From: Paramacrobiotus metropolitanus
Lineage: Eukaryota; Tardigrada; Eutardigrada; Parachela; Macrobiotidae
DNA: 64,000 nt
Assembly (NCBI RefSeq): GCF_019649055.1
Contig: NW_026570309.1
Coordinates: 434,001-498,000 of the forward strand
Direction of reading: 5' to 3'
Each line of letters opens with the position of its first letter. The first letter of the stretch is position 1. Below, one piece after another: positions 2,896 through 25,746 of the stretch. Position numbers and translations under genes: made by a program. The notes under the pieces were generated by a model. That model was not told the origin of the DNA. It did not search any database and worked only from the letters and a program-made list of their open reading frames with translations.

Positions 2896-3098
2896 CACGG
2901 AATAGCCTAAGGCATAATCGATTTATATGCACAGCACAACAAGATTTTGTTATAAAGACAACTGCGCAATTCACGGCCTGTCTCCTCAGAAATGCTAAAA
3001 CTCGGACGGAAAATTTTGCAATCCTCAATATTTACGTGCCTCGAATTTTGCCTCTCTATAGAGCCAAAGCGGTCAACAAACGTTAGAATAGCTTACAA

Positions 3099-3185
3099 AT
3101 GGATCACATTGGAGCGGTTTCCGTTGCCGGCTCCGTATCCGCTAATTCCAGAGATGGATTCTACTATTCCGTGTATAATAAATAA
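3099..3185 (+). CDS. Tiny peptide, YYTxYN family, shortened member (A)
   Basis: A 28-codon open frame with in-frame ATG and TAA. Its N-terminal half (GAVSVAGSVSANS) aligns with the genes at 5080 and 6497, and it ends RDGFYYSVYNK instead of RDGFYTSDYYTIYNK, so four residues of the motif are missing without loss of frame. The related upstream block lies at the usual distance. It may be a functional short variant or an early stage of decay. No signal peptide or known domain is visible; function unknown. Confidence 0.55.
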   Translation: MDHIGAVSVAGSVSANSRDGFYYSVYNK

Positions 3186-4594
3186 TATGCCAAGACGTCA
3201 GGATTTGTTCCTTTCCATGCCTGCAAATCTCAACATTCCATAGAGCATTTTTTTCTGTGATAACTGCGTGTTTTTGTTTGTACTTACTTGATGATCAAAA
3301 GTTTCTAATACAGTAGTTCTGAGTGTACTCCTGCCAAAGATTTTTAATACCTTCAAAGTAATCCTGTCATGATTAAAATCTGTGAGTTTTTAACAGATTG
3401 TTGGTTGGATTACGTGGAGTTACTGTTGCGGTTGTGGCAATGATTATACATACATTAATACAAGGAAACGAACATTCGGTTAATTTTTCGATTTTAGCAA
3501 GTATTACATCAGTAGATCATCCGTCAATCTCAAAATCAGAATAATCTAAAAGAAGAAAACAAGCAAAATTTTGCTAGAACTGATTTGTGCGAAACTTCTT
3601 TTCAAGTTGAGTGTCGCCACTTTGTATACAGAAGCGCCTCCGGAAATGGTAAGTATACCAAAATCAGTACTTTGGCAGCAGAGTGAGCAGACTGCGTCAG
3701 AAGCAAGTTTAGACACAGTTACATGTAGTTTAGTTAAAACCGGACATCGGAACCTTAATCGCCATTTAACGCTTATCGAGCTCTCGGAAGTAAATCTTTG
3801 CCGCTTGAGGATACCGGGGCTTGTCGTCTACGCCGCGCGATGTCCGTACGGTGCATTGACGACGAAAGGCAACCGCAGGTCGCTTGGCAAATCAACACAC
3901 ACCGCGCCGGACACCCTTTAATCACCATAATTCATCGTAAAAAAAATGCACACAATAAGAAACAACGAGATGAATGACACCGATCAACAAGGGGCCGGGT
4001 GGGAGGGTTAAGCGAAATATGCAAACAAAACCTCAAAATGCAGTATAACGATAGTTTTTCTCATTGCAGCCCTACGCCCTGGACTATACTTTTAGCTTTC
4101 AACGAACTGCTTAATTCGTTGCCAAGCACTACGAGAGCTCTGCGTTAACGACATTTAATGCTTTCAGCATTAAATGCCAATAACGAAAATTTCCAAACTA
4201 TGCGATACAAGGGCATTATAAACAGAGTACGATACACTTAGGTTTCCGCTTCTAAAATAAATTGGTGAAAATTCCTGATAAAAGTACAGATGCCTCTACG
4301 CAAGCCGACGTCTGCAGGCATGTTAGGGTTTGGGAAATGGAAACATCACTTTGTTAAAGGCGAATCCAAGCGAATAGTTTCCCGGAGGTTAGCAAACTAT
4401 TGACATAATGTTACGGGAAATTAGCGCGTAATTACAGTTTTAGTGCATATTAAGGAAACTATACAAGTATGAATCTATATACGCGGCTAATCATATAACA
4501 CTGCTATTTGTAATACAGCTTCGTCATGTGTTTGCAAAATTATTGATTTAATGCTGTCTAGTGTCTAGATAAACTTGATAATGTGCACAGATCA
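3186..4594. other. Intergenic, no supported gene
   Basis: An open frame of 116 codons at 3571-3921 lacks an ATG start and any recognisable domain, so I do not call it. The rest is AT-rich and unstructured by eye. The next duplicated unit starts near 4595. Confidence 0.4.
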
Positions 4595-4795
4595 TCCACA
4601 TGCGTGAGTGCGCGGTAATGAACTTGAAACGAGTGCGGTGTGCCCTCGGGCTTCACACACAGTGCCGCTCACTCCGTCGTGTCTAGGTACTGTACCGAGA
4701 ACCGCAGCTGCCGTTGCGTCTGCATCAGTGTTACTCAGTTATATGGTGTCAAACGAACAATTGTTAAAGAAACGCTTTAACGCGTTGGTGAAATG

Positions 4796-4945
4796 AGTGT
4801 ACACCTGAATGAAAGGATATTTCCGTTGCCGGCTTATCAAGATCAAACGTAACGTGACAAAAGTCTGACGACCACAAGCCCTGGGGACAACGATGAGTTG
4901 CACGTGCAGCTGCCATCTGCAATATAAGTAAGCGTTAAGCCAATC
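4796..4945 (+). promoter_or_regulatory. Promoter region of peptide gene B with TATA box
   Basis: Contains GAAAGGATAT, CCGTTGCCGGCTT, CAAACGTAACGTGAC, then CTGACGACCACAAGCC, GACAACGATGAGTTGCACG and a TATA-like AATATAAG at 4921-4928. The same order recurs inverted upstream of 8249, and the TATA-proximal half recurs before 6497. TATA-to-ATG spacing is about 155 bases. Confidence 0.6.
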
Positions 4946-5079
4946 TCTCTCTCATAATTTTCACTGCAACCGAACTTGAATCTTAACTGAAACTGCACTT
5001 TAGCCACTACTCCGAATTTTTTTGTGGTCGAAGATTTCTTTTCTGCCATCGGTTTTTATTTGGCACGACGGAACGAAAA

Positions 5080-5190
5080 ATGGCCTGCAACACAAGTAAT
5101 GGAAAGACGGTGTCCGATGCTGGCTCACCGTCGGTTAACTCCCGAGATGGATTCTACACTTCGGACTATTACACTATCTACAACAAATAA
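5080..5190 (+). CDS. Tiny peptide, YYTxYN family (B)
   Basis: A complete 36-residue open frame, MACNTSNGKTVSD through SRDGFYTSDYYTIYNK, ATG to TAA. The N-terminal half is small and polar (Asn, Ser, Gly, Thr); the C-terminal 16 residues are tyrosine-rich and nearly invariant across the family. No signal peptide or membrane segment is visible. The coding sequence is better conserved between this gene and the inverted copy at 8249 than the flanks are, and a TATA box and AATAAA signal lie at sensible distances, so I regard it as a real gene. It matches no family I know; function unknown. Confidence 0.75.
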   Translation: MACNTSNGKTVSDAGSPSVNSRDGFYTSDYYTIYNK

Positions 5191-5447
5191 ACGAGTGGTT
5201 ACGTTAAACAACTGCCCTACGATTGTCCTACAATGTGCCAGTATTTCGTGGAACCTTTTTCCTGTGATCATGACGCGATTCCGTTTTGTACTATACGTTC
5301 CTGCAACTGTTTTTGCTCCACAAAGTTTTTGTTGTTTCTTAAAGATGTTACTATTGCAAAAAAGCCTGTGATTTTATGCATTCGGAACCCTTTATTGTTT
5401 GTTACGAGAAGATTTGATCACCCATATGTGGTGACAATGATTTATAC

Positions 5448-5453
5448 AATAAA
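5448..5453 (+). terminator. Polyadenylation signal of peptide gene B
   Basis: AATAAA about 258 bases after the stop codon at 5190, in an AT-rich 3' flank, the first canonical signal on this strand after the gene. Confidence 0.4.
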
Positions 5454-6303
5454 ATCGAAAAACCTTATTAATTGGCTCTTGATTCGTATTGGTGAATGAC
5501 CGCCATGGAAACTCGCTCTTCCTCGTTTGTCGATGCAATCAAAACCATGTAGTCAAAGAAGCGTTAATTTCTCAAATAGAGGATAATTATTCGCCATTCA
5601 AAAAAATAAAACCTGCAATTTTGTTACCGCAGTAAATAAGCTCATAGTAAAACTACTTAAATGGTGTAAAAATTTAATATATATATATAGATATAGAGCA
5701 TGACAATGTACTACCTCGTGAATGCACAAAAACACGGCTGTTTGAACACGGAACGTGCTGTACATACCACAAATGAGTGATATTACTTACGTATTATATA
5801 GATATAACTGGTTTGACAGGACTTTGTAACATAGTAATAATAATTTTTCAGTGACAACTTACATGATTCGATTTGATGAAACTGAAGAAAACTTTACTGA
5901 CAAGTGACAAATAACTTAAAATTTACTTTATGATCGGTCAAAAATCAGTAAAAATTTAATATGACTGACAACAGATGGTCGACGCTGTGCAGCATTTTCC
6001 GTGCAATAAACAAACTGTATGTGCATTGTGCATCAGCGGTTTGGCTGCTTGCCAACTTGTTTGCTCCACGTTCATGGATGGACAGAAGAAGCCCCCGAGG
6101 GATGGTCATTACTCACTAAACCGTGAATCTTGCGTGCTAAAGTGATACCGCGAACACCAGTCGCGGTTACGTTTACCGCTTGCCAAAAGACAAAAGCTCA
6201 CATTTGACACTTCTAGCAAACCACGGGTGACTGGGCCATGCCATCAAAAGGACGACACTGGTGCCGGCATTGTGGATTACGATACAAGTGAGATGAATAG
6301 ATT

Positions 6304-6360
6304 GACGATTGCAGCCCCGGGGACTGACGAGCTGCACTTGCTTGCCGCTTAGTATAAAAG
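6304..6360 (+). promoter_or_regulatory. TATA box and proximal element of peptide gene C
   Basis: TATAAAAG at 6353-6360 is preceded by GACGATTGCAGCCCCGGGG and GAGCTGCACTTG, which match the proximal promoter elements before the genes at 5080 and 8249. TATA-to-ATG distance is about 145 bases, as in those genes. Confidence 0.6.
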
Positions 6361-6496
6361 GAAGTTTGTGCACAACATTTACACAATCAATTCAGTGCTT
6401 ACCTGAAATTCTTGACTTTTATGCAGCGAATCGAAAAATAATAACTGCAAAGGCGTTCTGTTTTACAACTCGTCTAGTACGATACTTCCATTCAAA

Positions 6497-6607
6497 ATGG
6501 CCTCGAATGCGAGTGAATACGGAGCTGTTTCCGGTGGTGCAGTGCCTTCTGTGAACTGCAGGGATGGATTTTATACTTCGGATTATTACACGATATACAA
6601 CAAATGA
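6497..6607 (+). CDS. Tiny peptide, YYTxYN family (C)
   Basis: A complete 36-residue open frame starting MASNASEYGAVSGG and ending CRDGFYTSDYYTIYNK, ATG to TGA. Its length equals that of the genes at 5080 and 8249. The C-terminal 15 residues are identical to theirs, while the N-terminal half differs at most positions. This pattern fits selection on the C-terminal motif. A good TATA box precedes it at the family-typical distance. No signal peptide; function unknown. Confidence 0.75.
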   Translation: MASNASEYGAVSGGAVPSVNCRDGFYTSDYYTIYNK

Positions 6608-8044
6608 GTTCATGAGAGGATTGGAACCCGATAAGATTTAGAATGCAGTATCCCGCTTACCGCGTCTGTGATACAGTCTGTTGATCGATTTTTATAGTTT
6701 GTGACTGATTTTGTTCCTCTTTCAAGCATGAGACCAAATTGCTCACTTTTGACAAGCCTGTCAGTATTACTTTTTTATGTGGTTGTTCTTGATTTTTGTG
6801 AACAGTATTTATGTAATACCGTCAATTTGATTGACTGTGATTTGCGCTCCAGTCGGAGCTGTTCAGATGCAATAAAAATAAAATTACAAAAATTATTGAT
6901 ATTAGACTTGGTAGAGCACTTGCACAGTGTTAATTAGTAATTCCCGCACAGACGGTGCAGTACGGAATGTTTGGCTGTATTATGCATGGTAGTCTCTGTC
7001 ATGTTGTTCGCTATAAATTTGATGAAATTCCATTACGGCAAAGCCACGAGTTTTCGGTTTATCGGCGAATGAAACTTCAACTTACGACGTACGAAGTCGC
7101 ACAGCTTCAAACACCACACCGTAAAGTCATAAACTGTTATAATTACCGTATCTTGTGCATATACGAAAGCACCTCACAACATGATCATGAACGCGCCAAA
7201 TACCGGCGCAACAGATGGGGACTAAAACCTACTGGTCAGTCAAAAAAACGAAATCAAAAGAACGAAACGTAATAGCGCCGCAATACTATGGCAGTCGCGC
7301 CTCATGAAGCTTACCTGGGCACAAAATCAACTTCCAGGAGAAGCGTAACAAGACCTCTACACAAAGGTCAGCTCTAGACACGATGAGACTAATCTAAGTA
7401 CGCGTACAAAATTCGCAGAATACACTGCTACGAAACGTCAATGCCACAATTCCTGTTCGATGAACATTTTCTAAGGCTTCTGTCCATTTCTTTCGCGTAT
7501 CTGTGGTTTAAACTCCGATTTTACTGCAATCTTATTTTAAGACTGGTATCATATATTGCTAGTAAGTTTCTTTGTTAGCTATTTGTCGTATTTTTGTCCA
7601 AATCCGGGCTATCGAAATATATTCATAATATTTTTGTTTTATACACGTACGTAACAATAATATGTTTAGATACGTTCAGAATTATAAAAAAGGCTTTTCT
7701 TGCTGGCAAATCGCCAATGATTCAATGTCAGTTTTAGTGGCAATTCATCAAGCTGCTTATGTAATTAAGAGTTTAGCATACGTCGCGCATGACATTGGCT
7801 GGATGGAAAAATAAACACCATCATTTTCCACTATTTAGGAGCAATACCCAAATATTTTAATAAATTTTTTCTTTTTTATTGTGAGCAATGCCGGAAATTT
7901 GGCAGACCATATTTCACATAACAAACAAATACAAGCAGTAAACAAAAATCACAGATCTGTAAGATACACATAGTAAAAACTCTAAGATCGAACGCCAGAA
8001 ACTTCGTGAGAAAAGATCAACTACAGGAACAGGCAATACAAAAT
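6608..8044. other. Intergenic, centre of the inverted duplication
   Basis: AT-rich sequence with an AATAAA cluster near 6872. A 105-codon open frame at 6955-7272 starts without ATG and shows no domain, so it is not called. The axis between the plus-strand units and the inverted unit at 8.0-8.7 kb lies in this stretch. Confidence 0.4.
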
Positions 8045-8138
8045 GGAGGAGTGCATTTATCACAGGTAAACCATTCTTCGGAATACTGATACATCGTAGG
8101 ACAAGAGCGGATCAGTATGTTTTGACGAAGCCCCTCGT

Positions 8139-8249
8139 TCATTTGTTGTAGATGGTGTAATAGTCCGAAGTGTAGAAACCATCTCGGGCATTAACCGACG
8201 GTGAGCCGGCACCGGAAACCGTCTTTCCGTTATTTGTGTTGCAGGCCAT
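8139..8249 (-). CDS. Tiny peptide, YYTxYN family (D)
   Basis: A complete 36-residue frame, MACNTNNGKTVSG through ARDGFYTSDYYTIYNK. The frame is open upstream for another 46 codons, but the start at 8249 matches the ATG of gene B and sits about 140 bases after the TATA box at 8387-8394, so I use it. It differs from gene B at only a few residues (Asn for Ser at 6, Gly for Asp at 13, Ala for Ser at 21). AATAAA follows near 7875. Function unknown. Confidence 0.75.
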   Translation of the reverse strand: MACNTNNGKTVSGAGSPSVNARDGFYTSDYYTIYNK

Positions 8250-8349
8250 TTTTGATTGCGTCGTGCGAATCACAAACAGACAGCAAAAAAGAAATTTTCG
8301 GCAAATACAAAAGTGCAATTTTAGTGAAGAAAACTTTGGAAGCTTGATT

Positions 8350-8525
8350 GCATTGAGTTGTGGTGAACAGACCGGCTTGACGCTCACTTATATACTGCAG
8401 GTTGCAGCGGCACGTGCAACTCATCGTTGCCCCGGGTCTTGCAACCGATCGTCAGACTTTTGTCACGTTACGTTTGAACTTGTCAAGCCGGCAATGGGAA
8501 TATCCTTTCATTAAAGTGTACAGTC
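8350..8525 (-). promoter_or_regulatory. Promoter region of peptide gene D with TATA box
   Basis: Read on the minus strand it gives GAAAGGATATTCCC, CATTGCCGGCTTG, CAAACGTAACGTGAC, CAACGATGAGTTGCACG and TATATAAG at 8394-8387. It matches the promoter of gene B along its length and keeps the E-box-like GCACGTGC. Confidence 0.6.
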
Positions 8526-8728
8526 ATTTCACCAACGTGTGAAAGCGCTTGTTTGACAACTATTCTGTTGGCACCCACTAATTGAGTAACACTGATGCAG
8601 ACGCAATGGCTGCGGTGGTTCCCGGTAAATTACCTGGACACGACAGAGTGAGCGGCAGCGCGGGAAGCCCGAGGGCACATGGCACTCGTTTCAAGATCAT
8701 TCCCGCTTACTTACACATACGATAATAG

Positions 8729-9479
8729 CGCACATATGAACTACCCTAGCATGTAGTGACATGTACAAGTATTAACCTTATTAATTTACAAACAAATCAC
8801 GAGTTTGAAACGGAAGGGTACTGTACTTGTATTTTTACTATTTCTACACGGTTTTCAGGCGCACGTTGCCAACACCTTAAAAACTGGTTCAAATACGTAA
8901 ATTATTTTACGGTATCTGTGGGGGTTTCACGTTAACAGTGTTTCATAATGACGTCTGCTCTGGGTTCTCTGGAGCAGTTACCATCATAGTCCATGAAAGC
9001 CATTCGCTTTCTTAGGGGTAATGGTTCCCAACATCCCAGAACTGTTGCGTCGTGGTATTGTAATAAAAATAAGATAAATTTCCATTAATTTCATTTTTTT
9101 GGAATGGAATTAGCGGCTTTTCAACAGTTTCTATATGTGGTTTCTTTTCTCAGAATCGCCGCTCGCGAACGTCGAGCGTTTGATGTTCCATCTGTAGTTG
9201 GTAATATGCATGTGCTTGTTTCTTCTGTTTAACTACCGTATACAGAGTGTATGTGGCAAGATTTATAGACGAAACATTAATTTTGGCGAAAGTCCTTAGG
9301 AAATTTTTATACATATATATGTGTTTGGGCTCATTCGACATTTCTGTTTCCTCAGTTTGCTTCGTAGACCTACGAATAAGTTCAGCCTGGTGTAAGAATA
9401 ATTATTATTAGTACTTTATTTGGAGTCATCGGTAAAGCACTTCTGTACATGATTACTCATCGGAATAATAAACAAATTA
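8729..9479. other. Intergenic, nothing seen
   Basis: AT-rich sequence between the inverted peptide unit and the broken SLT gene copy. No supported open frame or repeat. Confidence 0.4.
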
Positions 9480-11693
9480 TCAACGAGCCGGCATGGGCAT
9501 ATAGCGGCCCATTTCGGCGCTGGCGTTGCATCCATTGATTCAACTCACGTTGATTTTCTTTGAGCCGCTGAACACCCTCCTGTACGTTGGCTTTCCAGTT
9601 TCATACTTGTTCACAGGTTGGTACGGGACTGGTAAGTTGGAAAATTCCGACACCGTTATCCGGCGAAATTAACGGCAGTCCACTGGTGAACTGGCGCAAG
9701 CCGCTCTCATGCTCAGCAATATAGTTTGTGCGGTGCAGTTCGGGGTTTTAGCGACTTACAACATAAAACGTTTATCATTTCATTTGAACGAAAATATGAT
9801 GAATAGCAGACTTTGGCAGAGCTGATTGAGCGGAAGCCGTTGTACGGAGAATAGCCTGCTTACCACAAATTTCCTGAGGCAGCCAAGATCAGCGTCCTGA
9901 TATCGTCAGCTGCGGGCTGGGTACCGGCAATAGAGAACGTTATGAAACCGGTTACACCGAGGGTATCCGTCCATCGAAGCGTCGCGCGCCCGCCACGCAC
10001 ATTCGAACTGGACAGTATATTTGTCCAAGGGTTATACTGACTAGAAAGCGTAGTTTCATTGCATAGTACTTTGCCAGAAGTGTGCGAAAAGGCATCTATT
10101 TTTAGTTGCCAGTCAATGGGTTTCTTATTGTTACAGTAGTACGCCGAAAGAGACGGCATTCTGGCGTCTTTGTCAATGTACACAACGCTTCCGTTGGTGA
10201 TTTCTCGTCCGCCGTTCATCAGGCGGACACGCCTTTCTCCGCTCGCACACGCATCGGGACAGGACAACTGGAAGTTCCATGTTGTGCCAGTTGTGCCAGC
10301 ACAGTTGGGTTCTACACGTCCACGCGAACTTCAGAAGACAGACCGCGAAATGGAATACTGATGTTTCGGGTAGCGCCGACGCAGTCAGTGTCGTACATCA
10401 TGTTGTTATCATGTGTGACGGTTATCCTGTCCTTGAGAGCAAATGTTTGATAATAAAAGTTAAAACTCCCGGAAGTTGCGCCCACGTTGTACCGGCGGGT
10501 CACCGGTGTATCTGCGCCTGTTAACAAATACAAGCACACCGCGAGTCATAATGCTGATATTTCAGAATATTTATTTGCGAATATCCAACAATAAGCAGTT
10601 TGCCTCGCTACATTGGGAATGCTCTAATCGACACATTTAAATGATCTGGTAAGTAGGCCAAACATGACCGCCACGTTGCTAAACTGCGAGGACATTTTGT
10701 CCAGACAAACTCTGTATGAAGAAGCTTGCTTTATAAAACTAATCTATTTATGTATTTCTTAAATGAAATTAATAGAAAACTAATGATTTGAGCAGTGCAG
10801 GTAACAGTAACACCTAACAACAGCCAGCAAGCAGCGCAAGTTATGTAAGTAAGCGGCGTAAATTATGCAAGTAATTTTCAGTACAGAGTATAATCGAATG
10901 TGCCAATATAATGCCGTACATGGCTGATATATTTTTTTTGTGGTGTGTTGCTACTGTTGAATTCCAGCTTACCGGAAACAGTGCTGGCAGCGTCACACGT
11001 ATTGCAAGACGTGGCACATGCCGAATCAGGATCTGCATCACATTGTGACCCACAGGAAACCGCGAGTGAGTTACTAGGAGAGCCAGCCGATGCCGAAGCT
11101 CTTGTTATTCTGTAAGGTGTCCAGTTAACCGTTGTACACGAACTTACACCTGCTTCCGGACAGAGTGATTTTGGCATGCGAGCCTGTATTTCATACAGCG
11201 TGCCACTACCGACTCCGCCGATTATCTTCCGCTCTCCGGATCCGGGAACATCTGCAAGCGATACCGGCACGACATTCAGATTTGCGGTGTTCCCGAAACG
11301 TATTGCTAAACCATCCTCTGCATTATGGGTGTCTTTTTTGTTTCGACCAGTATCCGCAGCCGGTAGCCAAATGTAGAAGTAATGCAGTCGACCAGTCTCG
11401 ACGACGAAAGAAGAGTCTTCTACACGAACGCCAAAATTTTTCAGCTCATCAGTTGTCAGGTTCTTTGGGGCCGCTCCCGCTGGACCGGGATCATAGCTTT
11501 CAAATGCTTTGATGTAGCTTCCGTTAGGGAATGTTGCAAGGTGGCTGATCTTGTCTTCCAGAACGTTATCATCCCGGTCGTGTGCTGTATTATACATTTG
11601 CAGACCAAAAGCTAAACCAAGTGTTACAGCAAGGATTACGGCAATGAGGGCAATAATTATACTAAACATAAGCCAGATTTTCTTTCTTTGCAT
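9480..11693 (-). pseudogene. Decayed inverted copy of the SLT membrane-protein gene
   Basis: Exons equivalent to those of the plus-strand gene lie at 10973..11693, 9864..10517 and about 9480..9732. Exon 1 is intact: a short cytosolic end, a membrane segment near residues 7-32, then an extracellular region (type II topology). Four lesions follow. Exon 2 is 654 bases against 652 in the other copy; the 2-base insertion creates an in-frame TAG at 10312-10314. The acceptor before exon 3 has lost its AG. A Trp codon after PTCEQV is TGA. About 165 bases between VPVPDR and the stop are deleted. The catalytic Glu region is unchanged. At most a membrane-anchored fragment of about 308 residues without the SLT domain could be made. 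Confidence 0.88.
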
Positions 11694-12594
11694 TGTTAAA
11701 TTTTAAGTAGACTAAACCTACAGTACTACAATCAAAAAACGGCAAGCCACAAGCGCAACTGCACTGCTTCGTGTGCTCATAGCCAGATTATGTTCTGGAA
11801 ATGTGCTTATACCTATTTCATACTTATTGCACGTTTGCAGTAAAACCAGGGTGCGTATATTGCGGTTTGTAAGTGACGTAAATTCGCGTAAGCGCAGTTG
11901 CCAGTTAGCAAAATATGTGAATGCGTTTGCGATGGGTGTATATAGTGTGTATTACCATTGCGTAATTAACGCGAGTTAGCTAACTTTAGTCTTTAATATA
12001 TAACCTGACGTCAGTGAAAGTACACGCACATTAGTGTAAATTGTGTAAGTCAACGCAAATTATGTGAATCTGTATAATTCAGTATTAGTTGACGTACTGT
12101 ATGTCCATGTAAGTTATTTAGCGTAAACTACGATAGCTTACTCAAAGTAAGTAACGGTAAGCCTGTATTGTAAACTGGAGAGGCCATTGAAGGCAACGCA
12201 AATCTGCGTAAAGTAATGTACATATAAAACTGTAAATAACGGAAGTCTGCGCAAGTCCGTGCAATTTATTGTCCACTGCATGTCTCCATTTCGCATAAAA
12301 CATTTAACCATTGATTTTTCATGAAACTGGTTTGCAGTATAAAGCAGCTAACGATAAACTTCACTGGTTGAAAGGAAATTTCAATGACCCTGAATTTGTA
12401 ATTATATTCTTAGCTGATAAAGATCAGATTCCATATACTTCTCTGAAAAACTACCATAAAATGAAAAAGGAAAGACATGTCGATCGGCGGCAGGATTCCA
12501 TCACACAACAGTATCGCTGTGCAAACCTTTAAGTATTCCGTACAAAATGTGTATAACTAGTTTCATTCCACAAAGAACGCTGGAGATGATAATA
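11694..12594. other. Intergenic with short degenerate repeats
   Basis: Between about 11860 and 12260 short words such as GCGTAAGT, GTAAATT and CGCAAATTATGT recur loosely on the plus strand, as they also do near 10830-10880. Probably old simple repeat; no gene is supported. Confidence 0.3.
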
Positions 12595-16396: not shown

Positions 16397-17256
16397 TCAA
16401 TAATTGTACACAGTATAGTAATCCTGAGTATAGAGGCCATCTCGTGCGTTTCCGAAAAGAGGAGGATTAACGAAAACGCCATCCAGAGAGATATACTGCA
16501 ATGGCGGAGCAGGAATATTTGTGTCGACGTCGGTTTGGACCATTTTCTTGTCCAGGTTTGGCTAAAAAACAACGGAAATTAGTGAAAAAATAGTGGAATC
16601 TAAAAGTGAACTTTGGAGTTGCAGGCTTTGTTCAACGGAGAAGAAATTTGTATTTGAGAAAGTTACAATTCATTGATGGTCTGAGATAAAAGAAGACGTC
16701 TTATATGTAAGAATATATTTTTCTCACAAAATGGTTTGCCCTTAGGGTGACATTTCTCGCCCGAGCAAAACAAAACAGTCCGCTAATTACTATTATGGTA
16801 GCACCTATGCAGTTCCGTTACTCGCTTATACACAAACGGCATCGCTGATTCAACAGTAAAATAGTGAATCAACAATGACTGACATATTTGAATTCACGTT
16901 CAGTCATCTAAAAACTGTTTGTAACTGCTTTGAACGATTGCAACATGCGGAATGCTTCAGGCTACTCAAGCGACCACTCATAAAATTTTACGACCTATTA
17001 TGTAGTTTTGTTGGTGAAAAATTGGACTGCAGGGCCGGATGAGTGATGCGGTATTGCGGTGTGTACCCGGACTTCCGGTGTTGTGGTGGTGGTTAATTAA
17101 GAACAGAAGCACAGCTGAGCTTGATCGATGACTGTGTACGCGTGAACTTACCAACATTATGACGTTGTTCGCTTCAAGGTGACAATAAAGAAAAGCCAAA
17201 TACTGACGTGCAACGGATTCTACCAGAGAGGCGGTGGTGTAAGAGGATACAGCCAA
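16397..17256 (-). CDS. YYTxYN family peptide with upstream exon (E)
   Basis: Two exons, 17152..17256 and 16397..16561, joined in phase 0 (donor GTAAGT, acceptor TTTTTTAG), give 89 residues. Exon 2 alone holds an ATG-started frame of 48 residues that ends NARDGLYTQDYYTVYNY. The first exon starts MAVSSYTTASLVESVARQYL and has no known domain. The motif is diverged from genes B-D (Leu for Phe, Gln for Ser, C-terminal Tyr) but in the same C-terminal position. Whether exon 1 belongs to it is inferred from phase and splice signals only; the 48-residue frame is the safer part. Confidence 0.55.
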
Positions 17257-18342
17257 TAGTAGATTGCGTCAAAAGTACGACTGCTGTTTACGAGTTACGA
17301 CAGACGCGTGAAACACGGGCATTTTTACGTAGTACTGTCTGCGAAATACTATTGCGTAAAATGTCTGTGATATCTGCGTGACCCGTAATGCCCGTCGTGA
17401 ATTTAAATTCCTTTCATTTATCCTGCAGTATCGTCCTTCAGCTTATCCATGAGAGAATGATTCGTTACTTACAGGATAATATCTAATAAGTTGCTTGTAT
17501 TTTTACTTTACAGGCTAACGAAAGGTAGCTCATGAAAGCTTCAATTAATAAATAAGCAACATACGGTACATGTATATCTTGCTTACGCTAGTGTGATACT
17601 TTTTGTCTTATCGTTAGTATTATTGGTGGCTAACAAGGGGACGTCACAGCATGAATTTAGATCGCAAAATTGCTTCTGCACGATTGTTTATATTGTCCTT
17701 ATTGGTGTACTACAGCTGTAGTTATTCACTGATAATTTTGTAAGTCACTACCGGTTTGCAGTTCATTGTTTGCGTGCCGTAACGATGCCGTTAAACAAAA
17801 AAACGGCAGTTAGAGAATGGTACAATATTGGGTACAGCACAGTACATACAGTACAATACATCGTCTGCTGCTGTAGGGCATAAAACCTAAGCGGCACCGT
17901 TGCCGGCTTCACTGGAAATATAACTTTACGTACTGAGTATACAATTAATAGACAATTGTAACTGTGTTAATGGAGATCTAATGCCACGAAGCCTTTATTA
18001 GAAAATGCATGTGTTCCCAATTAATATGTAAATAACCGGGCTTGAGTAAATAGTTATGTTCTTATCTGGACTTCGTCACAACACACACAAAATTGAAGAC
18101 CATTCTTTGCTTTTGCAAATGTTTTAATGCTTCGTAACTGTTTCCAGCGGAAACTACAATACTGTAGAAGTAATCAAAATCAACCCGCACGTGAGACGTT
18201 CAATAAATAAATTACAAAAAATTCTCATCACTAGCAATGTAAAAATAGCTAACATATGCTGCTATCACATCAATTTGATCCATTATCGGTAATTAATACT
18301 GGCGAATAATTCACGCAATCCCGTCGAAAAAGATTTAAAAGC
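17257..18342. other. Intergenic with an orphan promoter-like word
   Basis: CACCGTTGCCGGCTTCACTGG near 17888 matches the core of the peptide-gene upstream block, but no peptide frame follows on that strand. No other feature seen. Confidence 0.3.
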
Positions 18343-18555
18343 TTAGGAGTTATACACCGTGTAGTAATCCGATGTGTAGATACCATCCTTGCGGGAGTTG
18401 TAAACGGTGTAATAATCGGAGGTGTAAATTCCATCCTTGCGGGAATTGTAGACAGTGTAATAGTCGGAAGTGTAGATTCCATCCTTCCGGCATACGATTG
18501 CCGCACTGCCGACGCTTGGGCTGTTAGCCAAAATGCCAGTCTGGATAATCGCCAT
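18343..18555 (-). CDS. YYTxYN family protein with three tandem motif copies (F)
   Basis: A 70-residue frame starting MAIIQTGILANSPSVGSAA, followed by three direct copies of the 16-residue unit RKDGIYTSDYYTVYNS and then the stop. The frame extends 14 codons further upstream to 18597. The shorter start is preferred because it gives an N-terminal half of the usual length and lies about 137 bases after a TATA-like TTTATAAAG. Repeating only the C-terminal unit shows that this is the module that can be multiplied without loss of frame. No signal peptide is convincing. Function unknown. Confidence 0.72.
   Translation of the reverse strand: MAIIQTGILANSPSVGSAAIVCRKDGIYTSDYYTVYNSRKDGIYTSDYYTVYNSRKDGIYTSDYYTVYNS
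18346..18489 (-). repeat. Three 48-bp in-frame tandem repeats
   Basis: Units at 18442..18489, 18394..18441 and 18346..18393 encode the same 16 residues but differ at several synonymous positions (for example ACTGTCTAC, ACCGTTTAC, ACGGTGTAT for TVY). That suggests the peptide sequence is kept while the DNA drifts. Confidence 0.85.
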
Positions 18556-18688
18556 TGCAAAGAAATAATTATACCGCGTAATAGGTGCAGAACACAAAGT
18601 GGCTCGAATGATGAAATTCTGTGGTTAATTTGCTCAGTTGCCGGAAAAGCTCATTGACAAGAGTGAAGAGACATTTCACGCGGAATTT

Positions 18689-18697
18689 CTTTATAAA
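18689..18697 (-). promoter_or_regulatory. TATA-like box of gene F
   Basis: TTTATAAAG on the minus strand about 137 bases before the chosen ATG, the spacing seen for genes B, C and D. Confidence 0.4.
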
Positions 18698-20156
18698 CCT
18701 AAACCGTACCACGACAGCATTACACGGCAGGAACACAAACACTGGCCGCAGGGAAATTGCGCAAAATCTGCCAAATTGTGATGAAAGTGCAGGTTGTTCA
18801 CTTACACTGTCTGTATACACAGTAATACACAATAAAAAATTATTAACAAGTATACCGGTCCTGGTGCAATACCTTCTGACGTGGAAACCGCGGCCGTCAA
18901 ACACGCTTTGGTCTGCGGTTTATGCGCGTGAAAAGCGAAGGCAACCCGGCGGCACCATGAGATCATCGCAGATCCGCCACGGTTCACCCGGCAGAAAATC
19001 CTTTGTCGGCAAATAAACCGATGATGCACAACAATAAAGGTGTGTGCAATGAGTAAGCATGTTTGTTTTTGTTATTAAGTACTATCCGAACGTGTCGTGC
19101 GTGTCGTGCCGCTATAACACATGTAATATTAGTGTTTGCAGTTGCTTTCGGTTTTCCTGATTTCAAATAACAAAGCAAGAACTGCGAAAAATAACAACAG
19201 ACAACAGTTGTGGGTACCTTCATTCAATAAACAAAGGTAATTAAAGCCGAAAACTGAGAAGAGTTGTCATTATTAATATAAAAACACATGCATTTTTTTA
19301 CAGAGAAACATCAGAATTGTGCATTAGTCGACGATGGATGGGGTGCAACTGTTTTTCTTGCAAAAGCAGTTGCTAAACAAAACTGGTCGTGGAGCAAATG
19401 TCCTTTGATGCCCTCAGTCCGTCAACAAACTTGGAGTAATAATGAATAATTAATAATCATTAATCAGAAAAATAAATTAAAATGTAAACTACCATTAAAA
19501 TCGCTAAAATTAAATTAATTTAGAGTCAGAAGCGAAAATAAGTACACACCAGTAATATTCGTTCTAAATTAGGGGACAATATTTTTTTTCGCATACACAA
19601 ACGGGATTATTTAATTTTAATCAAATGGTTACAAACTGTCCTTTCGGCAACTGAATTTCTTTCCCATTTTGCTTAGCAAAACTGGTTTTTCGTTTGGGAT
19701 TTTGCTGTCTTGCATAACCAGTACACAAGTGATCTCGGATTAATGAACGGTGTGACACTTTACAACAGCAGTTCTTACTAAAGTTTATATGTTCTTAGGT
19801 AATCATGCCGTAAATACGGTTTAATCCATTGACAAAATTAATAAATTTTATGACATTTACACGGATATGATAAAATTTATGGTGTTATAGCTTTCATTCA
19901 TAAGCCTTTAGGCAACAAAACCGTCCGTGTTGACTGTTTTACCGGTACTTAATACTACTTATAACGGTGCAAGATTTAGTGACAACCAGATCTGTTTTAC
20001 GTCTAAATAACCGGTATGAACGTATCATTCGAGCGGGTGCGCTTTCGATTACTGATTTCTGCTTTACCAGCTTTATTTCGCTGCATTTATATCAAACTTT
20101 TTCTGGAGGCTGCATCGCGTGTTTGCTTAATTAATTTTACAGGACAGGAAAAGAAA
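18698..20156. other. Intergenic, no supported gene
   Basis: Overlapping open frames on both strands at 18570-19220 have no domain and no splice logic that I can see. 19440-19900 is AT-rich. Confidence 0.35.
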
Positions 20157-20330
20157 ATGGTTTTATACGTCAGCGGTTGTTTAAATAATTCGGCTACCTT
20201 GAACAATTGTCCGCTGCCAACCGGGATGAAAAAGGATGGACTTTACACATATGACTACTACACCGTCTACAACCAGCGCCGCTGTACTTTTCCTATTAAC
20301 AAAGGATCCCCGGAGAATTTGGTTTTATGA
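20157..20330 (+). CDS. YYTxYN family peptide with C-terminal extension (G)
   Basis: A 57-residue frame starting MVLYVSGCLNNSATLNN, with MKKDGLYTYDYYTVYNQ at residues 24-40 and a further 17-residue tail rich in Pro and Asn. The ATG is preceded by TTTTACAG and GGAAAAGAAAATGG, similar to the acceptor and AAGAAAATGG context of gene E exon 2, so an upstream exon may exist. The frame is also open back to an ATG at 20016. The tail after YNQ is not found in other members and may come from loss of the original stop. Function unknown. Confidence 0.55.
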   Translation: MVLYVSGCLNNSATLNNCPLPTGMKKDGLYTYDYYTVYNQRRCTFPINKGSPENLVL

Positions 20331-21089
20331 TCCGTACAACTGTGTCCGTTATTTAACTCTGATAGACTGTGATGCTTCATCTTGCGCAATACGATGATAC
20401 CATTATAAAGTTTTGTACATTTGAGCAGTTTGTGTATTGTAACGGCACATGAGCATGGTTTCTCCCCAAGCTTTCGCTGTTACTTTGCTCAGTAGGAACC
20501 GTGATTCTGCCAGGCTCCTGGTGAGAAGTGATGTGAATACTGCGGCTTATTTCTACGACGGTGTCATCATTTCTAATTTGTTAAAAATCTTTTCACGAAG
20601 CTTACGTTGCTGTACTGAATACCTTAGTACAATAAGTAGAAGCTACAGAAGAAACTGGATAAGATGGCATTCAGATGAACATGTGTACCCGTGTAAAGAA
20701 ATGTATACCCGATAAATTGATAATTGCATAATGCTCTTTAGTTTTATGTATCGTTTCAGTATTCGAGTACAATTACTATGAATGTCATTTAATACCACTG
20801 CAGCTGCAGCGGGAATATGCAATACAATGAAATCCTTTTAGCCTGTTCTTGTGCGGCATGTCTGCAGTGCAGGAAGCTGCACAGCGTAAACTCAAAGCAA
20901 ACACGAGAATTCGATCCCTGATAAAACTCATTTACAAATTATTTACAAATGACAATCCCAGTTTTTACATTATTGCTTCCGATTTGGAAGAGGGCGAACA
21001 CACTGAATATATTGGCATTACAAGCAAAACTATAGTTGTAATGCAATCCGAATTAAAAAAATTCAACTTGATGATACTAGGATTGCTCT
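20331..21089. other. Intergenic, nothing recognised
   Basis: An 88-codon frame at 20449-20715 lacks a domain and is not called. The plus-strand frames further right (20849-21557) lie over the exons of the minus-strand receptor. Confidence 0.35.
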
Positions 21090-22738
21090 TTATGACAGAA
21101 CTGCAAGATGGACGGTGGCGTTGTGTATGTATTCCAGTGTTGCCTGAATGTCCATCTGTGATTCGCGAGTTTGATATAGCAGAATGAAATAAGTTATCAG
21201 CATGCCACACACCTGAGAAAGAGGAAACGTGCCATATTGAAATATCTCCGGACAAACCTGCTTTACGCTTTACATTGCACTGATTGCAAACTTACCATTA
21301 GAACATACTCTTTCGTCAAGTCGAAGAAACCACCGGCAGTAATTGTAGCTTTTCCGCTGTCGAAAACAGCTCGCAGTGATTGGCATTCTTTGTGGACCAA
21401 CGGATTCTTATGCGGGTCAGATATGAGTTCATTAATGGCATCTCTTACAGAAGAAGCCTACAGTTACACACAGACGACGTCGATTTCGGCAAAGGTTTAT
21501 TTCAGTACTGGTGTATTTATAGGTAAACCCTGTCGAGCGCGTACAAATAAATCGTAATAAAGAGATTTATTTTTCCCATGCCTTGCATACTACAGACGAT
21601 CAAATACAGTATGTACAACAAATGCCGTACATAAATGCTAAAAATAATATTTAATTACTGTTGCATCAATGCGCTCAGTAAGTTTTTAATTAGATACACA
21701 GATACTCAGATAGGTACTGTATGTTTTTACCTGATCATGACAGAACACACACGCCGAAACCCGTATAACTGCACTGATAAGCGACGTTGCCGACGAAAAC
21801 GACAAGTTAACCACCAGATATTCTCGGTACAGACGCAGATTATAAGCGGCTTCCGGCGATATGCCGGGATCATGGTGAGACGGCATTAACAGCACCGCCC
21901 CGAATGCCACCCAAATCATGACTTCCTGCAGGCCCACCACGAAGTTGATTGTCGAAAACACATCGTTCACGTCGTAAATACCGCAGCGCAGTTGGCGAAT
22001 CAATCCGTGACCTTTCGCAATATATGTCAACATCTTGTCGTCATCCTTGCATTGCAACAACTCCTGTAAATGCCGCGCGAAACTGCGGAACCCAAACGCT
22101 AAGGGAATGACTAAACCCATGAAGATCGCTTGGGGAACCGTGCGAATGATACTCTTAACCACTTTCGTAATGATGCGAAAGATATCGGACAAAACTTTAG
22201 GCGGTGCAGTTGTTCCGAAGAAAAACAGTGTCTCGTGCGTGCCGGTTTTGGTTTCTGGTCGTTTCACCATGAAAACAGCGGGTACGAAAAAGACGATACC
22301 GATTACTGTTACAATGAAAATTATTAGCGTAAAAAGCTGAATCAGTCGGCGATGACTAGCACACAAAACCGGTGCCAGTAAATTTTCTTTGTATGCGTAA
22401 ATCTGTGGGAGAAAACGGCTTTTCCACATCAATGTTGCGACAATCGCCAGGATGTGCAGATTCTCGGTGAAATGTGAAAGAAGAAACAGTAAGGAGAACA
22501 GCTCCAAATTGCCCAGTTCCTCTTCCTGTGATTTGTAATGGTTGTGCAGGTCATCAAGGGTGATGAGTAAAATCGCGCCGATCGCCAAAATCGACCAAAT
22601 GCGCAACAACCTGAGCCTTTTGTTCGAATAGATCTTACCGTTAGCGTCATCCCCTTTGTCCCAGTAATACGGCATTAGACCCATACATTGTAACGTGCGC
22701 AGATAAAATGTGTCGAAGAATGACAAAAACGACGCCAT
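21090..22738 (-). CDS. Gustatory-receptor-like seven-transmembrane protein 2
   Basis: Three exons, 21731..22738, 21296..21457 and 21090..21212, give 430 residues with both introns in phase 0 (donors GTAAAA and GTAAGT). Exon 1 starts MASFLSFFDTFYLRTLQCMG and contains about six hydrophobic helices. Exon 2 ends ITAGGFFDLTKEYVLM. Exon 3 begins VCGMLITYFILLYQTRES, which carries the TYhhhhhQ signature of the insect gustatory receptor family. Length is normal for the family (about 350-450). The receptor probably sits in sensory-cell membranes with the N-terminus inside, by family knowledge. It shares the last two intron positions with receptor 1, so the two are paralogues, but the sequences are very different. 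Confidence 0.82.
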
Positions 22739-23507
22739 GTCTCAAAATTTTGCTATTCAAAAGTAATGACAAAACTGTTGCGTGATGCAGATTGACTAGA
22801 TGCAGATTTAAGAATTCCTCTTACGAAAAATGTTCTTCTGTTATTTAATTTCATAATTGGGTTTGTATTTGCACATTAGCCCGGTGGAATTCAGTTCAAT
22901 CTGACGTAAAGCCGTAAAGGTGCACTTTGACAGATTGACAGGAATTTAGAGACCCGTGAGTTTAGTCAATGAATTCCGTACCTGTTGTAACCTGATCTAT
23001 TTTTTCGGAATACTTAATGTTGACTTATCTATCACAAGTGTAGTAACTTAAACTGAATTCTCCCGATGACAATTAAACGCTGCTTACCTTAAATACTCGT
23101 ATATCCTCTGGGCGCACGGTGTGCACCTACTTGAGCGAATCAACTAAATTTTAGCTGATTCGCAGAAGTGTACAGTACAGAGTACTAGCACGCTATACCA
23201 TTACTCTCTAATGCCGATACATACAATTTGATAATCGATCATCTTATCATTTCATGGGAAAGTGCACTCATAGATTTCTAGGTTTGCGCGATAATTATCA
23301 TCGTGTACGAGAGTTACTTATCGGACATTGCCTCTCGCATTATCACTACAGTGCGGGCACTATAACACACAAACCGCACGCCAATCTCCTTCACCTACTT
23401 GTTTGCTTCATCTGTATGTAGTTGCTATTCTTATTTTATGATACTGTTTTGCTGGTTTGTTAGCTTGTTTAGGTTTTTCTGATTTCCGAAGTATTTCGTT
23501 AAGGAAA
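22739..23507. other. Divergent promoter region between receptor 2 and methyltransferase
   Basis: 770 bases between two divergently transcribed genes. No clear TATA box or repeat on either side; moderately AT-rich. Confidence 0.4.
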
Positions 23508-24350
23508 ATGATCAAATTATCTAGGATTTATTTCCGTACGCCGTGGAAATTTGAAAATGCAGCGGGTCGTCGACGTTTATCAGTCCTGAATAAAGCACGC
23601 TGGATGCCGTTCACAAAAGGTCCAGACGATATCATGACCGAAACTTTCAACCAGATGGGTTACAGCGTCGACATTCTAGACCCATACACCGCGTACTTCC
23701 TCCACAAAATGCGGAAGCCCACCCAACCAGTCGCTGATCTGGGCTGCGGTTTTGGAATCGTTACCAAGCATCTGCTCAACGCCGGCGCCACGGTTATTGC
23801 CAACGACATCTCCAGAGCGCATTTGGCGGAAGTGGAAGACAGCGTCCCGCGTGAACAGCGCTCCCGTTTGACTATCGTCCACGGGGATGCCAGTCAGCTG
23901 GACTTCCCGGCAAACAGCCTCAGCGGAATCATGGCAGGCCGATGGGTGCATTTCCTCACCAGCCCCGAAGCGTACTTTGACTTCTTCCATCGAGCACTCA
24001 GATGGTTGGAACCCGGTGGGAGTTTATGTGTAACGGTGCACACGATGAAGGCATGGAGTCCACCGGAGGTCTGTGCGGCGTATGAGATTAAGCGCGCCAG
24101 TGGGATGGCGTGGCCGGGATGGGTGTCGCGGGAGATGAAGTGGGAAGGGCTGCGGGATCGCTTGCCGGATCGGGGATATGCGTTTCGTTTGGAGGAACTG
24201 AAAGGTTTGGTGGAGGAAATCGGGTTCCATGTGGAGAAGTGCGGGTTGTATGGGTTGCGCATACCGGCACATCCGCCGGAGCGGCAGGTGGAGCTGGCGC
24301 CGAATAATACCATTGGTATTGTGGCAAGTAAATCTATTTCGCTTACGTAA
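23508..24350 (+). CDS. Class I SAM-dependent methyltransferase
   Basis: An uninterrupted 280-residue frame. VADLGCGFG at residues 75-83 is the SAM-binding motif I, NDIS near 99-102 supplies the acidic residue that holds the ribose, HGDASQLDF near 126-134 is the adenine-side motif, and LEPGGSLCV is the usual strand after motif III. It belongs to the broad Methyltransf_11/25 type; the substrate cannot be read from the sequence. The first ATG of the frame with a good context (GGAAAATGA) is used. AATAAA at 24593 fits its 3' end. No intron is present, unlike most neighbours, and GC is higher than in the flanks. Either a retrocopy or transfer from bacteria is possible. Confidence 0.85.
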   Translation: MIKLSRIYFRTPWKFENAAGRRRLSVLNKARWMPFTKGPDDIMTETFNQMGYSVDILDPYTAYFLHKMRKPTQPVADLGCGFGIVTKHLLNAGATVIANDISRAHLAEVEDSVPREQRSRLTIVHGDASQLDFPANSLSGIMAGRWVHFLTSPEAYFDFFHRALRWLEPGGSLCVTVHTMKAWSPPEVCAAYEIKRASGMAWPGWVSREMKWEGLRDRLPDRGYAFRLEELKGLVEEIGFHVEKCGLYGLRIPAHPPERQVELAPNNTIGIVASKSISLT

Positions 24351-24592
24351 TCTGTTTCGATTTTGGACACTAATCCAAATTGTACATGCTAGTTTCTGGC
24401 ACATTGTTATTGTCATCGGTAATTGTTGCGTTGTGTCGCGTGCGCGCACTCTGATATTTTTCTCTGTCGTTTCCTGCGTTTTATCTTTTGTGTTTAGACT
24501 TATTATTGGAAATAGTGCAACTGCAAGAGTCATTGCTCCAAATTCCGTTTTTAAAAGGCCCCATATTTGACGTAATAACTGTACTAACGATA

Positions 24593-24598
24593 AATAAA
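24593..24598 (+). terminator. Polyadenylation signal of the methyltransferase gene
   Basis: AATAAA about 243 bases after the stop codon, followed by a GT/T-rich stretch (GTGTTTTTATTG), the usual downstream element. Confidence 0.5.
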
Positions 24599-24652
24599 GT
24601 GTTTTTATTGTATACAGTGGTGACTAAGGAGTCTATGGAATGATACACATAC

Positions 24653-24954
24653 AATGTACGACAAAAAGAGGTTGAACCGATCAGTCGGTCCGCGGTTCAA
24701 AATAACCTCGGAACGACACGCCACCACTAAAACTTGGACGCTTACTCACTACTTTCAGACGCTCGCGCTCCGTGAATATCAAAGTGCAGAATTTGTTTCT
24801 ACACCTTTTGATATGCAACTAGTATAGCTGCACTTTGATATTCACGGAGCGCGAGCGTCTGAAAGTAGTGAGTAAGCGTCCAAGTTTTAGTGGTGGCGTC
24901 GTTGCGAGGTTATTTTGAACCGCGACCGCAATTCAACCTCTTTTATCGTACATT
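24653..24954. mobile_element. Foldback MITE with long terminal inverted repeats
   Basis: Two arms, 24653..24789 and 24828..24954, are near-perfect reverse complements around a 38-base loop. The outer ends read AATGTACGACAAAAAGAGG and its complement CCTCTTTTATCGTACATT. The inner parts are almost identical over about 100 bases (GCTCGCGCTCCGTGAATATC). No coding capacity. The arms are far too long for a chance hairpin, and the high arm identity suggests recent origin or gene conversion. No clear target duplication. Confidence 0.8.
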
Positions 24955-25539
24955 ACTATAGAAATCTATACTGGTTATTTGACGACATTTTGACTGTACT
25001 GAAAACTGAATTCTTGACTGCATTTTGCAAATTTTGCCAGCATTTCAGCTCAAACAATTTATTCATTTGAGCTTTGATTCATTAAAATAATAAACGACGA
25101 GATCGTCGTATTAGCATCACAGCAAGAATAATTCTATCACTTTGTACACTATAAACAACTAACAAACAACATTTATACACAACATTTTCCGAGCTTCTCA
25201 AGGAAAGCCAACAACGTTCTTGAATGATTCAGCTGATGAAACAAGCTGACAATGACGTTTTTTTCCTGGCCAAATGACACGCATCCCGAGAAAAGAACTC
25301 GTCAGAATAGTATAAAACATACAAACACATGATATATTTGCGCATGATTACGTGGCAAGCCGTAGTAACTGGATATCTTCAACGGATGCTACCATTGTAG
25401 CAACTTCAATAACGGATTTTCGATAGGTCACGAGGGTAGTGAAGGCAAACAAGGACATGTGCTTCTTTTTTTCCATATCATTGATGTAAAACTGTTGTGA
25501 GCACTACAAATGCTTGTTCATTCCACGGGTTTCCTCATT
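24955..25539. other. Intergenic, nothing seen
   Basis: AT-rich, no supported frame or repeat. Confidence 0.4.
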
Positions 25540-25746
25540 TCACTTATAGTCGGAGTAATAGTCTCCAGTGTAGAATCCATCTCGGAAGTTAACAGATGGG
25601 AAACCATCAGAGCACGCATTCTTTGTGTCGTCCGAACAAATCCTGTGTTCCGTCCATTTTTCCGATATCGACATGGAGATAGTCTCATTCAGCAAGCTGG
25701 ATAAGGTCATCATGATTGCTGTATGGTTGCGCGGCGCACAAAACAA
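25540..25746 (-). CDS. YYTxYN family peptide, divergent (H)
   Basis: A 68-residue frame from the ATG at 25746. The last 29 residues (NACSDGFPSVNFRDGFYTGDYYSDYK region) align with gene B, keeping PSVN, RDGFYT and DYY but changing the end from YTIYNK to YSDYK. In-frame methionines downstream offer shorter products. A TATA-like TATTTAAA lies about 125 bases upstream of 25746. The N-terminal part has no similarity to other members. Function unknown. Confidence 0.55.
   Translation of the reverse strand: MFCAPRNHTAIMMTLSSLLNETISMSISEKWTEHRICSDDTKNACSDGFPSVNFRDGFYTGDYYSDYK

Follow-up and report, generated by a model that had tools for sequence, protein, structure and literature searches.

Lineage-specific micropeptide clusters, such as the nematode-specific peptide families, comprise tens of tiny paralogues with rapid birth and death. 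In Drosophila, reaper, hid, grim and sickle are small clustered genes whose function is carried by a short N-terminal IAP-binding motif after the methionine, and the microRNAs miR-6 and miR-11 share the K-box seed. A table in PMC11277110 lists these genes as targets of miR-6 and miR-11. K boxes (TGTGAT) belong to the genes of the fly Bearded family and Enhancer of split (E(spl)) complex, according to sections of PMC3261227 and PMC2760746; the former cites a proposal that microRNA control eased duplication by limiting gain-of-function effects, and the latter gives the Bearded motifs as VPVHFARTXXGTFFWT and DRW(A/V)QA. Here we describe, in the tardigrade Paramacrobiotus metropolitanus, a small-protein gene cluster that is like the Bearded and E(spl) genes in having K boxes in its 3' untranslated regions (UTRs), and whose products carry one nearly frozen tyrosine-rich motif. 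The analysis started from a stretch of 64,000 nucleotides of contig NW_026570309.1 (positions 434,001 to 498,000, here called the window; 43.4% GC), in a genome of 169.8 Mb in 533 contigs. Copies in the window are named by the position of their start, with a minus sign on the minus strand; those outside it are named by their kilobase (kb) position on the same contig, C89 (for example, 377 for C89:377 kb), where the window spans 434001-498000, and C112 denotes a copy on another contig.

The original prediction, made from the window alone, had pointed to eight open reading frames (ORFs) on both strands with a common C-terminal motif, and had called the family dispersed. Each of the eight frames was found and stays open to its stop codon, and their resemblance is far above chance; searched against the genome, the 5080 peptide retrieved 8249- at E = 6e-17, 6497 at 1.5e-8 and the copy on the other contig at 1.5e-6. 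Seven of the eight start positions stand as originally given, but 25746 proved to be an in-frame TTG, the in-frame ATG sitting at 25713. Nor is the family dispersed: at least 22 loci exist, of which 21 form one cluster of about 94 kb (C89:365.5-459.7 kb), eight inside the window and 13 to its left, with a single off-cluster copy at C112:86.9-87.1 kb. They were collected by whole-genome searches with five single-sequence queries, by a pattern scan and by a profile applied locally to 8,979 six-frame ORFs from three regions: 136 kb surrounding the window, 10 kb surrounding the C112 copy and 36 kb of a kinase cluster. The whole-genome search scored the best candidates only, and remoter members may be missed. 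In the local scan, 20 of the 22 loci scored E-values of 6e-27 to 6e-10, with 3099 at 2e-4 and the degenerate copy at C89:397.6 kb at 0.01, values that flatter the members because the profile was made from 16 family rows. The family is flanked by animal genes, including those for rhodopsin-type G-protein-coupled receptors, a 7tm_7 chemoreceptor, F-box proteins and kinases.

Seventeen of the 22 copies are intact, that is, open from an in-frame ATG through the motif, counting among them 377, which lacks its stop, and 3099, which lacks three motif residues. The five others are degenerate. An in-frame ATG is missing from 365 and 391, a TAG interrupts 389- internally, 397- has a frameshift and 428 carries a TAG inside the motif, although some of these defects are possibly assembly errors. 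The predicted proteins are 28 to about 78 residues long, each encoded in one uninterrupted frame, and frames of this size tend to escape standard annotation. For 374- and 20157, which have extra in-frame ATGs upstream, starts were chosen through the family alignment. The plus strand of the window encodes 3099 (3099..3185, 28 residues), 5080 (5080..5190, 36 residues, MACNTSNGKTVSDAGSPSVNSRDGFYTSDYYTIYNK), 6497 (6497..6607, 36 residues) and 20157 (20157..20330, 57 residues); the minus strand encodes 8249- (8139..8249, 36 residues), 16543- (16397..16543, 48 residues), 18555- (18343..18555, 70 residues) and 25713- (25540..25713, 57 residues). The claim that three frames have exactly 36 residues is thus borne out by 5080, 6497 and 8249-.

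The family motif is [RK]DG-x-[YF]-T-x-DYY-[ST]-x-Y-N. Within it, D, G, T, D, Y, Y and the last Y do not vary across an alignment of 16 copies, from which 3099 and all five degenerate copies are absent and in which 377, 18555- and 20157 are trimmed after their first motif; a second alignment of 16 rows, made of motif pieces, omits 8249- and includes the degenerate 365. Outside the first alignment, 3099 lacks the motif T and the second D, an in-frame loss of 9 nucleotides (nt) having removed the residues TSD to leave RDGFYYSVYNK. Two subgroups can be told apart by their endings, which are mostly RDGY[YF]TxDYYSTYNK in the left subgroup (365-393 kb) and mostly [RK]DG[FIL]YTxDYYT[IV]YN in the right copies and the C112 copy; 25713- deviates, with the divergent end GDYYSDYK (DGFYTGDYYSDYK). 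An MA start is shared by 10 of the 16 aligned copies. The original prediction placed the motif at or near the C-terminus, but the motif is internal in 20157 and repeated three times in tandem in 18555-, as a unit of 16 residues (RKDGIYTSDYYTVYNS). The motif therefore need not be C-terminal, which argues for a binding motif rather than an end-recognition tag; a C-terminal degron or PDZ ligand was rejected for the same reason.

Selection keeps this motif nearly frozen. When 20 motif copies (13 codons) are compared in every pairing, the proportion of synonymous differences (pS) is 0.85 and that of nonsynonymous differences (pN) 0.13, and of the 2012 differences 1257 fall at third, 412 at first and 343 at second codon positions (428, 397, 3099 and 25713- are left out, 18555- is counted three times and three degenerate copies are included). 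Eight close pairs, which share members and so are not independent, show 0 nonsynonymous against 31 synonymous differences in the motif, with motif pS between 0.21 and 0.81. Selection on this unit had been suspected from the start; a ratio of nonsynonymous to synonymous change (dN/dS) near 1 over the motif, named beforehand as a refuting outcome, is not seen. The three tandem units of 18555- (48 nt each) differ by at least 14 substitutions, all at third codon positions and none of them protein-changing (neutral estimate, P about 7e-10). The N-terminal halves vary, as had also been claimed, with near-neutral pN/pS in four pairs of the left subgroup (0.28/0.31, 0.28/0.27, 0.33/0.26 and 0.40/0.43); two pairs with the truncated 428 give 0.25/0.54 and 0.23/0.47, and 5080/6497 gives 0.33/0.71. 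The N half accordingly changes freely in the left subgroup and is under some constraint in the other.

Around many copies lie inverted and direct duplications of 64-78% identity. 5080 and 8249- are the two arms of an inverted duplication, and the left copies 375, 381 and 393 are 69-73% identical across 538-779 nt. These segmental duplications indicate that the cluster grew largely through local duplication.

Between 190 and 120 nt upstream of the ATG, 14 of the 17 intact copies have a TATA-like box, against 9% of random windows; it is absent from that interval in 377, 20157 and C112, the last having TATATA at -196. In the window, the TATA boxes noted originally are found at -140 to -165 in seven of the eight frames, namely at 2951..2958 (3099), 4923..4930 (5080) and 6353..6360 (6497) on the plus strand and at 8387..8394 (8249-), 16698..16705 (16543-), 18688..18695 (18555-) and 25868..25875 (25713-) on the minus strand; none was found for 20157. 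Upstream ATGs are depleted in the 17 intact leaders: the last 60 nt hold 0 where random windows of the region predict 16.3, and the last 95 nt hold 1 where they predict 26.1, as is characteristic of scanning translation that begins at the ATG of the family. The shared promoter blocks of the original prediction are likewise real: GTGACAA occurs upstream in 9 of 17 intact copies (both subgroups and C112; background 6%), AGGATCT in 6 of 17 (left subgroup only) and CACGTG in 5 of 17 (background 5%; P 0.0016 as one of 11 motifs tried), counts that take the copies as they stand and ignore kinship among them. Several left copies share, about 290 nt before the ATG, a block around AATCAGATA that has a GATA-type core, often after GTGACA. 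Notch-type control through Su(H) sites was rejected (1 of 17 against a background of 5%), as were heat-shock, AP-1, FOXO, CRE-half, general GATA and RCAGSTG E-box control, for which no enrichment was seen. Judged from sequence, the members are real, selected and very probably translated genes of an apparently undescribed family, and we infer that they are transcribed.

The 3' flanks hold a further element that is new here and absent from the original prediction. In an unbiased count over 21 of them (all but that of 397), CTGTGAT is the top 7-mer, present in 9 of 21 copies against a background of 3.7% (uncorrected P 2.5e-8). This heptamer complements bases 2-8 of miR-2 (UAUCACAG, from the 3' arm of this genome's mir-2 hairpin). 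The seed match is strand-specific and above background: TGTGAT lies within 150 nt past the stop in 12 of 17 intact and 0 of 5 degenerate copies, its first sites being 37-125 nt past the stop, whereas its reverse complement is found in 0 of 17; within 300 nt, the counts are 12 of 17 and 1 of 5. Among 64 control flanks, taken from stop-to-stop ORFs of at least 130 codons in the DNA around the family rather than from verified genes, TGTGAT occurs in 4 at 150 nt and 7 at 300 nt (Fisher 1e-7 at 150 nt, a limit chosen after the offsets were known). Two of the four control ORFs with the site belong to a single gene, present on both arms of an inverted duplication in the window (1-1439 and 9516-11206). 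Relatedness among the copies does not account for the sharing of the K box, because the intact 3' UTRs fall by blastn into 14 groups without detectable alignment, and in 9 of these 14 a majority of members have the site (P about 2e-8 at the control rate).

In the window, CTGTGAT occurs on the plus strand downstream of 3099 (3255..3261, followed by A to make the full 8-mer), 5080 (proximal at 5262..5268, distal at 5366..5372), 6497 (proximal at 6666..6672, an 8-mer; distal at 6835..6841, with a predicted miR-2 duplex of -21 kcal/mol) and 20157 (20367..20373), and on the minus strand downstream of 8249- (proximal at 8059..8065, an 8-mer; distal at 7948..7954), while 18555- has TGTGAT followed by A at 18264..18269. 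One mir-2 hairpin reached the Rfam cut-off, and its precursor contains TATCACAGTCATCTTTGATGAC; it lies beside a mir-71 match at C2:1153.7-1153.9 kb (L022:1365-1591). The order mir-71 then mir-2, side by side, is the usual one in protostomes. Putative control of the family by miR-2 through the K box is well supported at the level of sequence.

Differences from the fly systems were also seen. No Bearded motif was seen by eye in the 17 intact members, and no such Pfam family was found in the 16 members scanned; Brd and GY boxes occur in 0 of 17 intact 3' UTRs within 300 nt, and Su(H)-type sites, as noted, are not enriched. Compared with the basic amphipathic N-terminal helix of Bearded proteins, the N halves are short, poor in K and R, and variable (judged by eye, with no helix predictor). 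The family also differs from reaper, hid, grim and sickle, as its conserved unit is C-terminal or internal and there is no constant N-terminal tetrapeptide: ten of the 16 aligned copies have Ala as residue 2, but residues 3-5 are not constant. An IAP-binding N-terminus was rejected because the N-terminal residues are not constant. Near-absolute constraint on one motif beside a free N half seems, to our knowledge, unusual among micropeptide clusters.

Searches for relatives agree with the earlier view that this is no known family, profile searches of Pfam and the PDB having given no convincing match. The Pfam scan of 16 members gave only weak matches to DUF903 (best E 0.011, 2 of 16) and Microp_apicomplexa_14 (0.12, one member); two family profiles matched no PDB chain, kinases included, at E <= 10, and the 70-residue member gave four weak PDB matches, the best being Kaede at E 0.13. 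With this member as sole query, no relative was confirmed among 6 pattern matches in IMG/VR viral contigs or 75 in GTDB prokaryote genomes, and tblastn of the 48-residue triple motif found none in phages. Rfam at gathering score gave no match in the window or the neighbouring C89 loci (L001-L009), and a tRNA scan gave none. Literature searches on the motif strings found nothing relevant, nor was there anything relevant among the matches listed for tardigrade microproteins, lineage-specific duplications and small-ORF families. The family is apparently lineage-specific, as judged from Pfam, PDB, phage, viral and prokaryote data, with no eukaryote collection among them.

Together, the tolerance of internal and tandem positions, the invariant residues, the lack of a confident fold and the lack of a signal peptide by eye suggest a short linear motif that docks onto one partner. 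We put a probability of roughly 60% on the reading that these are disordered, cytosolic, miR-2-repressed micropeptides, each presenting one linear binding motif to a common partner. Each micro-gene would be driven by a promoter of its own, in most cases with a TATA box. Its leader would measure about 110-165 nt, assuming a transcription start about 30 nt past that box, and would be followed by a single-frame micropeptide and, in most intact copies, a 3' flank with a K box. The protein would be disordered and probably cytosolic, and its motif would dock onto the common partner, with the N half mainly serving as a spacer or as a freely changing second arm. The partner would most likely be a tyrosine-recognizing signalling protein, our guess as to its class, and would presumably be bound competitively, while miR-2 from the same genome may repress the messages and so limit the dose from a duplicating cluster. 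A processed peptide, one of the roles first proposed, found no backing, as no signal peptide or processing site was seen by eye, no predictor having been run. LC3-interacting region (LIR), YxxPhi and immunoreceptor tyrosine-based inhibitory (ITIM) motifs were rejected because the residues after DYY differ between the subgroups.

Several observations weigh against this reading. The N half of 5080/8249- is constrained as well (pN 0.06 against pS 0.26), so a mere spacer is not general. The AlphaFold model of the 70-residue member has a mean predicted local distance difference test (pLDDT) score of 42, and a low score obtained from an alignment of eight short sequences is a weak sign of disorder. 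In five of 17 intact copies (C89:377, 379 and 393, 16543- and 25713-), the 400 nt past the stop contain no TGTGAT; 375 and 381 have the 6-mer only, and in C112 the first 150 nt hold just the 6-mer, an 8-mer lying further out. Pairing with miR-2 outside the seed is at most slightly favoured over chance sites: predicted duplex energies average -12.0 kcal/mol, against -10.8 kcal/mol at 98 background TGTGAT sites (P = 0.056). The mir-2 match is barely over its cut-off (46.6 bits against 45.5) and the mir-71 match is below its own (36.6 against 50). Finally, the control comparison carries the two limits given with it, the unverified status of the control ORFs and the choice of 150 nt, although at 300 nt the counts are still 12 of 17 against 7 of 64.

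Two other explanations are, in our estimation, unlikely and about equally so. In the first, the motif would imitate the YxxxYY activation loop of insulin-receptor/Trk/Ror-class receptor tyrosine kinases and damp receptor signalling, either by acting as a pseudosubstrate or by baiting phosphatases or SH2 adaptors. The [YF]-T-x-D-Y-Y that follows RDG does resemble loops of three kinases of this genome with the local pattern R-[DR]-x-Y-x-x-D-Y-Y, namely RDVYETDYYRK (C207, a kinase we take to be insulin-receptor-like), RDLYSSDYYKV (C104) and RRLYACDYYRI (C2). Insulin-receptor-type kinase domains are also numerous, with at least 129 stretches at E <= 0.001 among the best 150 of 209 candidates, and YxxxYY is described as the phosphorylated activation-loop motif of TrkB in part of PMC11405271. 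Shuffling the letters of the motif yields the pattern RD.{1,2}Y..DYY in 0.05% of cases; however, this is a post hoc comparison of a short motif, and Y..DYY alone arises in 3.7%. Unlike a receptor tyrosine kinase (RTK) loop, the motif has an extra residue between RD and the first Tyr, other residues and none of them basic after YY, and no kinase domain around it. The family profiles match no PDB kinase chain, as already stated, and a different activation loop is found in the kinase cluster that shares contig C89 with the family (C89:294-321 kb). Of the ideas on the partner this is the most concrete, and it is attractive. Because the likeness is post hoc and the first loop tyrosine is Phe in five copies (C89:374, 377, 379, 387 and 389), we regard the idea as improbable; slightly more doubtful still is its wider form, in which the tardigrade lineage would have evolved free-standing RTK activation-loop mimics competing for whichever kinases, phosphatases or adaptors recognize such loops, at a dose set by miR-2. 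Tyrosine-kinase domains (at least 129 stretches, counted exon by exon) are often clustered across the genome. Five kinases form a cluster at C89:293.7-321.5 kb (L010-L013), about 44 kb from the micropeptide cluster, with the loop type REQPEYILEREKV; this proximity was rejected as evidence, since on a rough reckoning several per cent of random loci would be as near to one of the genome's many kinase clusters.

In the second, the tyrosine-rich segment would self-associate into fibres, gels or condensates, for example a protective glass on drying, with the N half as a solubilizer. Tardigrades employ disordered proteins in desiccation, and the richness in Tyr, Thr and Ser, the tandem triplication in 18555- and the low-confidence, disorder-like model are all compatible with this. 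Composition-driven assembly, however, usually needs less exact conservation of residues, and here 13 residues, including charged D and the DG pair, are kept exactly; dosage control by miR-2 would also fit signalling better than a bulk protectant.

Considerably less probable is a last-exon origin, in which larger spliced genes would end in the motif as a conserved C-terminal exon and the reading from the ATG would be incidental. The motif frame is open without an in-frame ATG in C89:365 and 391, and 374- and 20157 have further in-frame ATGs upstream; yet the depletion of upstream ATGs reaches the family ATG, the TATA-like box lies at a similar distance from copy to copy, the MA start is common, and copies on both strands are interleaved. 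A functionless, non-autonomous mobile element or relic, spread by transposition or local duplication, is very improbable: the duplications around many copies and the five degenerate copies are in its favour, but segmental duplication accounts for the copies, 21 of 22 loci are in one cluster, unlike dispersed elements, the motif is under strong purifying selection, K boxes are retained outside alignable DNA, and inspection of the repeat listings turned up no terminal repeats shared by the copies, no transposon library having been searched.

The family offers a clean natural case in which selection keeps about 13 residues and frees much of the rest, with promoter, leader, frame and 3' box arranged as in a gene around frames of 28 to about 78 codons. 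The K boxes would be a cheap and specific handle on miR-2 function in a tardigrade, and they suggest that K-box control of a tiny-gene cluster arose here with a protein family unrelated to fly Bearded/E(spl). Were the partner a tyrosine-signalling protein, the micropeptides would be its natural peptide modulators.

Other features of the region were noted in passing. The gap between the two micropeptide subclusters contains satellite-like tandem arrays at C89:403.2-405.8 kb and at 407.8-408.8/425.3-426.2 kb (L005, L006 and L008), the second array being present twice in inverted orientation. In the window, 1-1439 and 9516-11206 are the arms of the inverted duplication mentioned above (76-88% identity) and hold copies of a gene of no assigned family; its part at 1205-1684 is lysozyme/transglycosylase-like by eye, with Pfam giving only a sub-threshold Peptidase_S6 match. 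The minus strand at 50938-54850 has the remains of a DIRS-like retroelement: one ORF encodes a reverse transcriptase, another ends in what looks by eye like a zinc knuckle, and a third resembles a tyrosine recombinase, scoring just under the Pfam cut-off. A unit of 388 nt is duplicated in tandem at 56340-57116 with 100% matches, possibly a very recent event or an assembly artefact, and two adjoining protein-kinase genes of the same type, each apparently split over two ORFs, lie at 57399-58731 and 60409-61692. Elsewhere in the genome, trehalose-6-phosphate synthase matches were found at three loci (C67, C208 and C84); three TPS-TPP genes are given for Paramacrobiotus sp. TYO in a section of Hara et al. 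2021 (PMC8277472).

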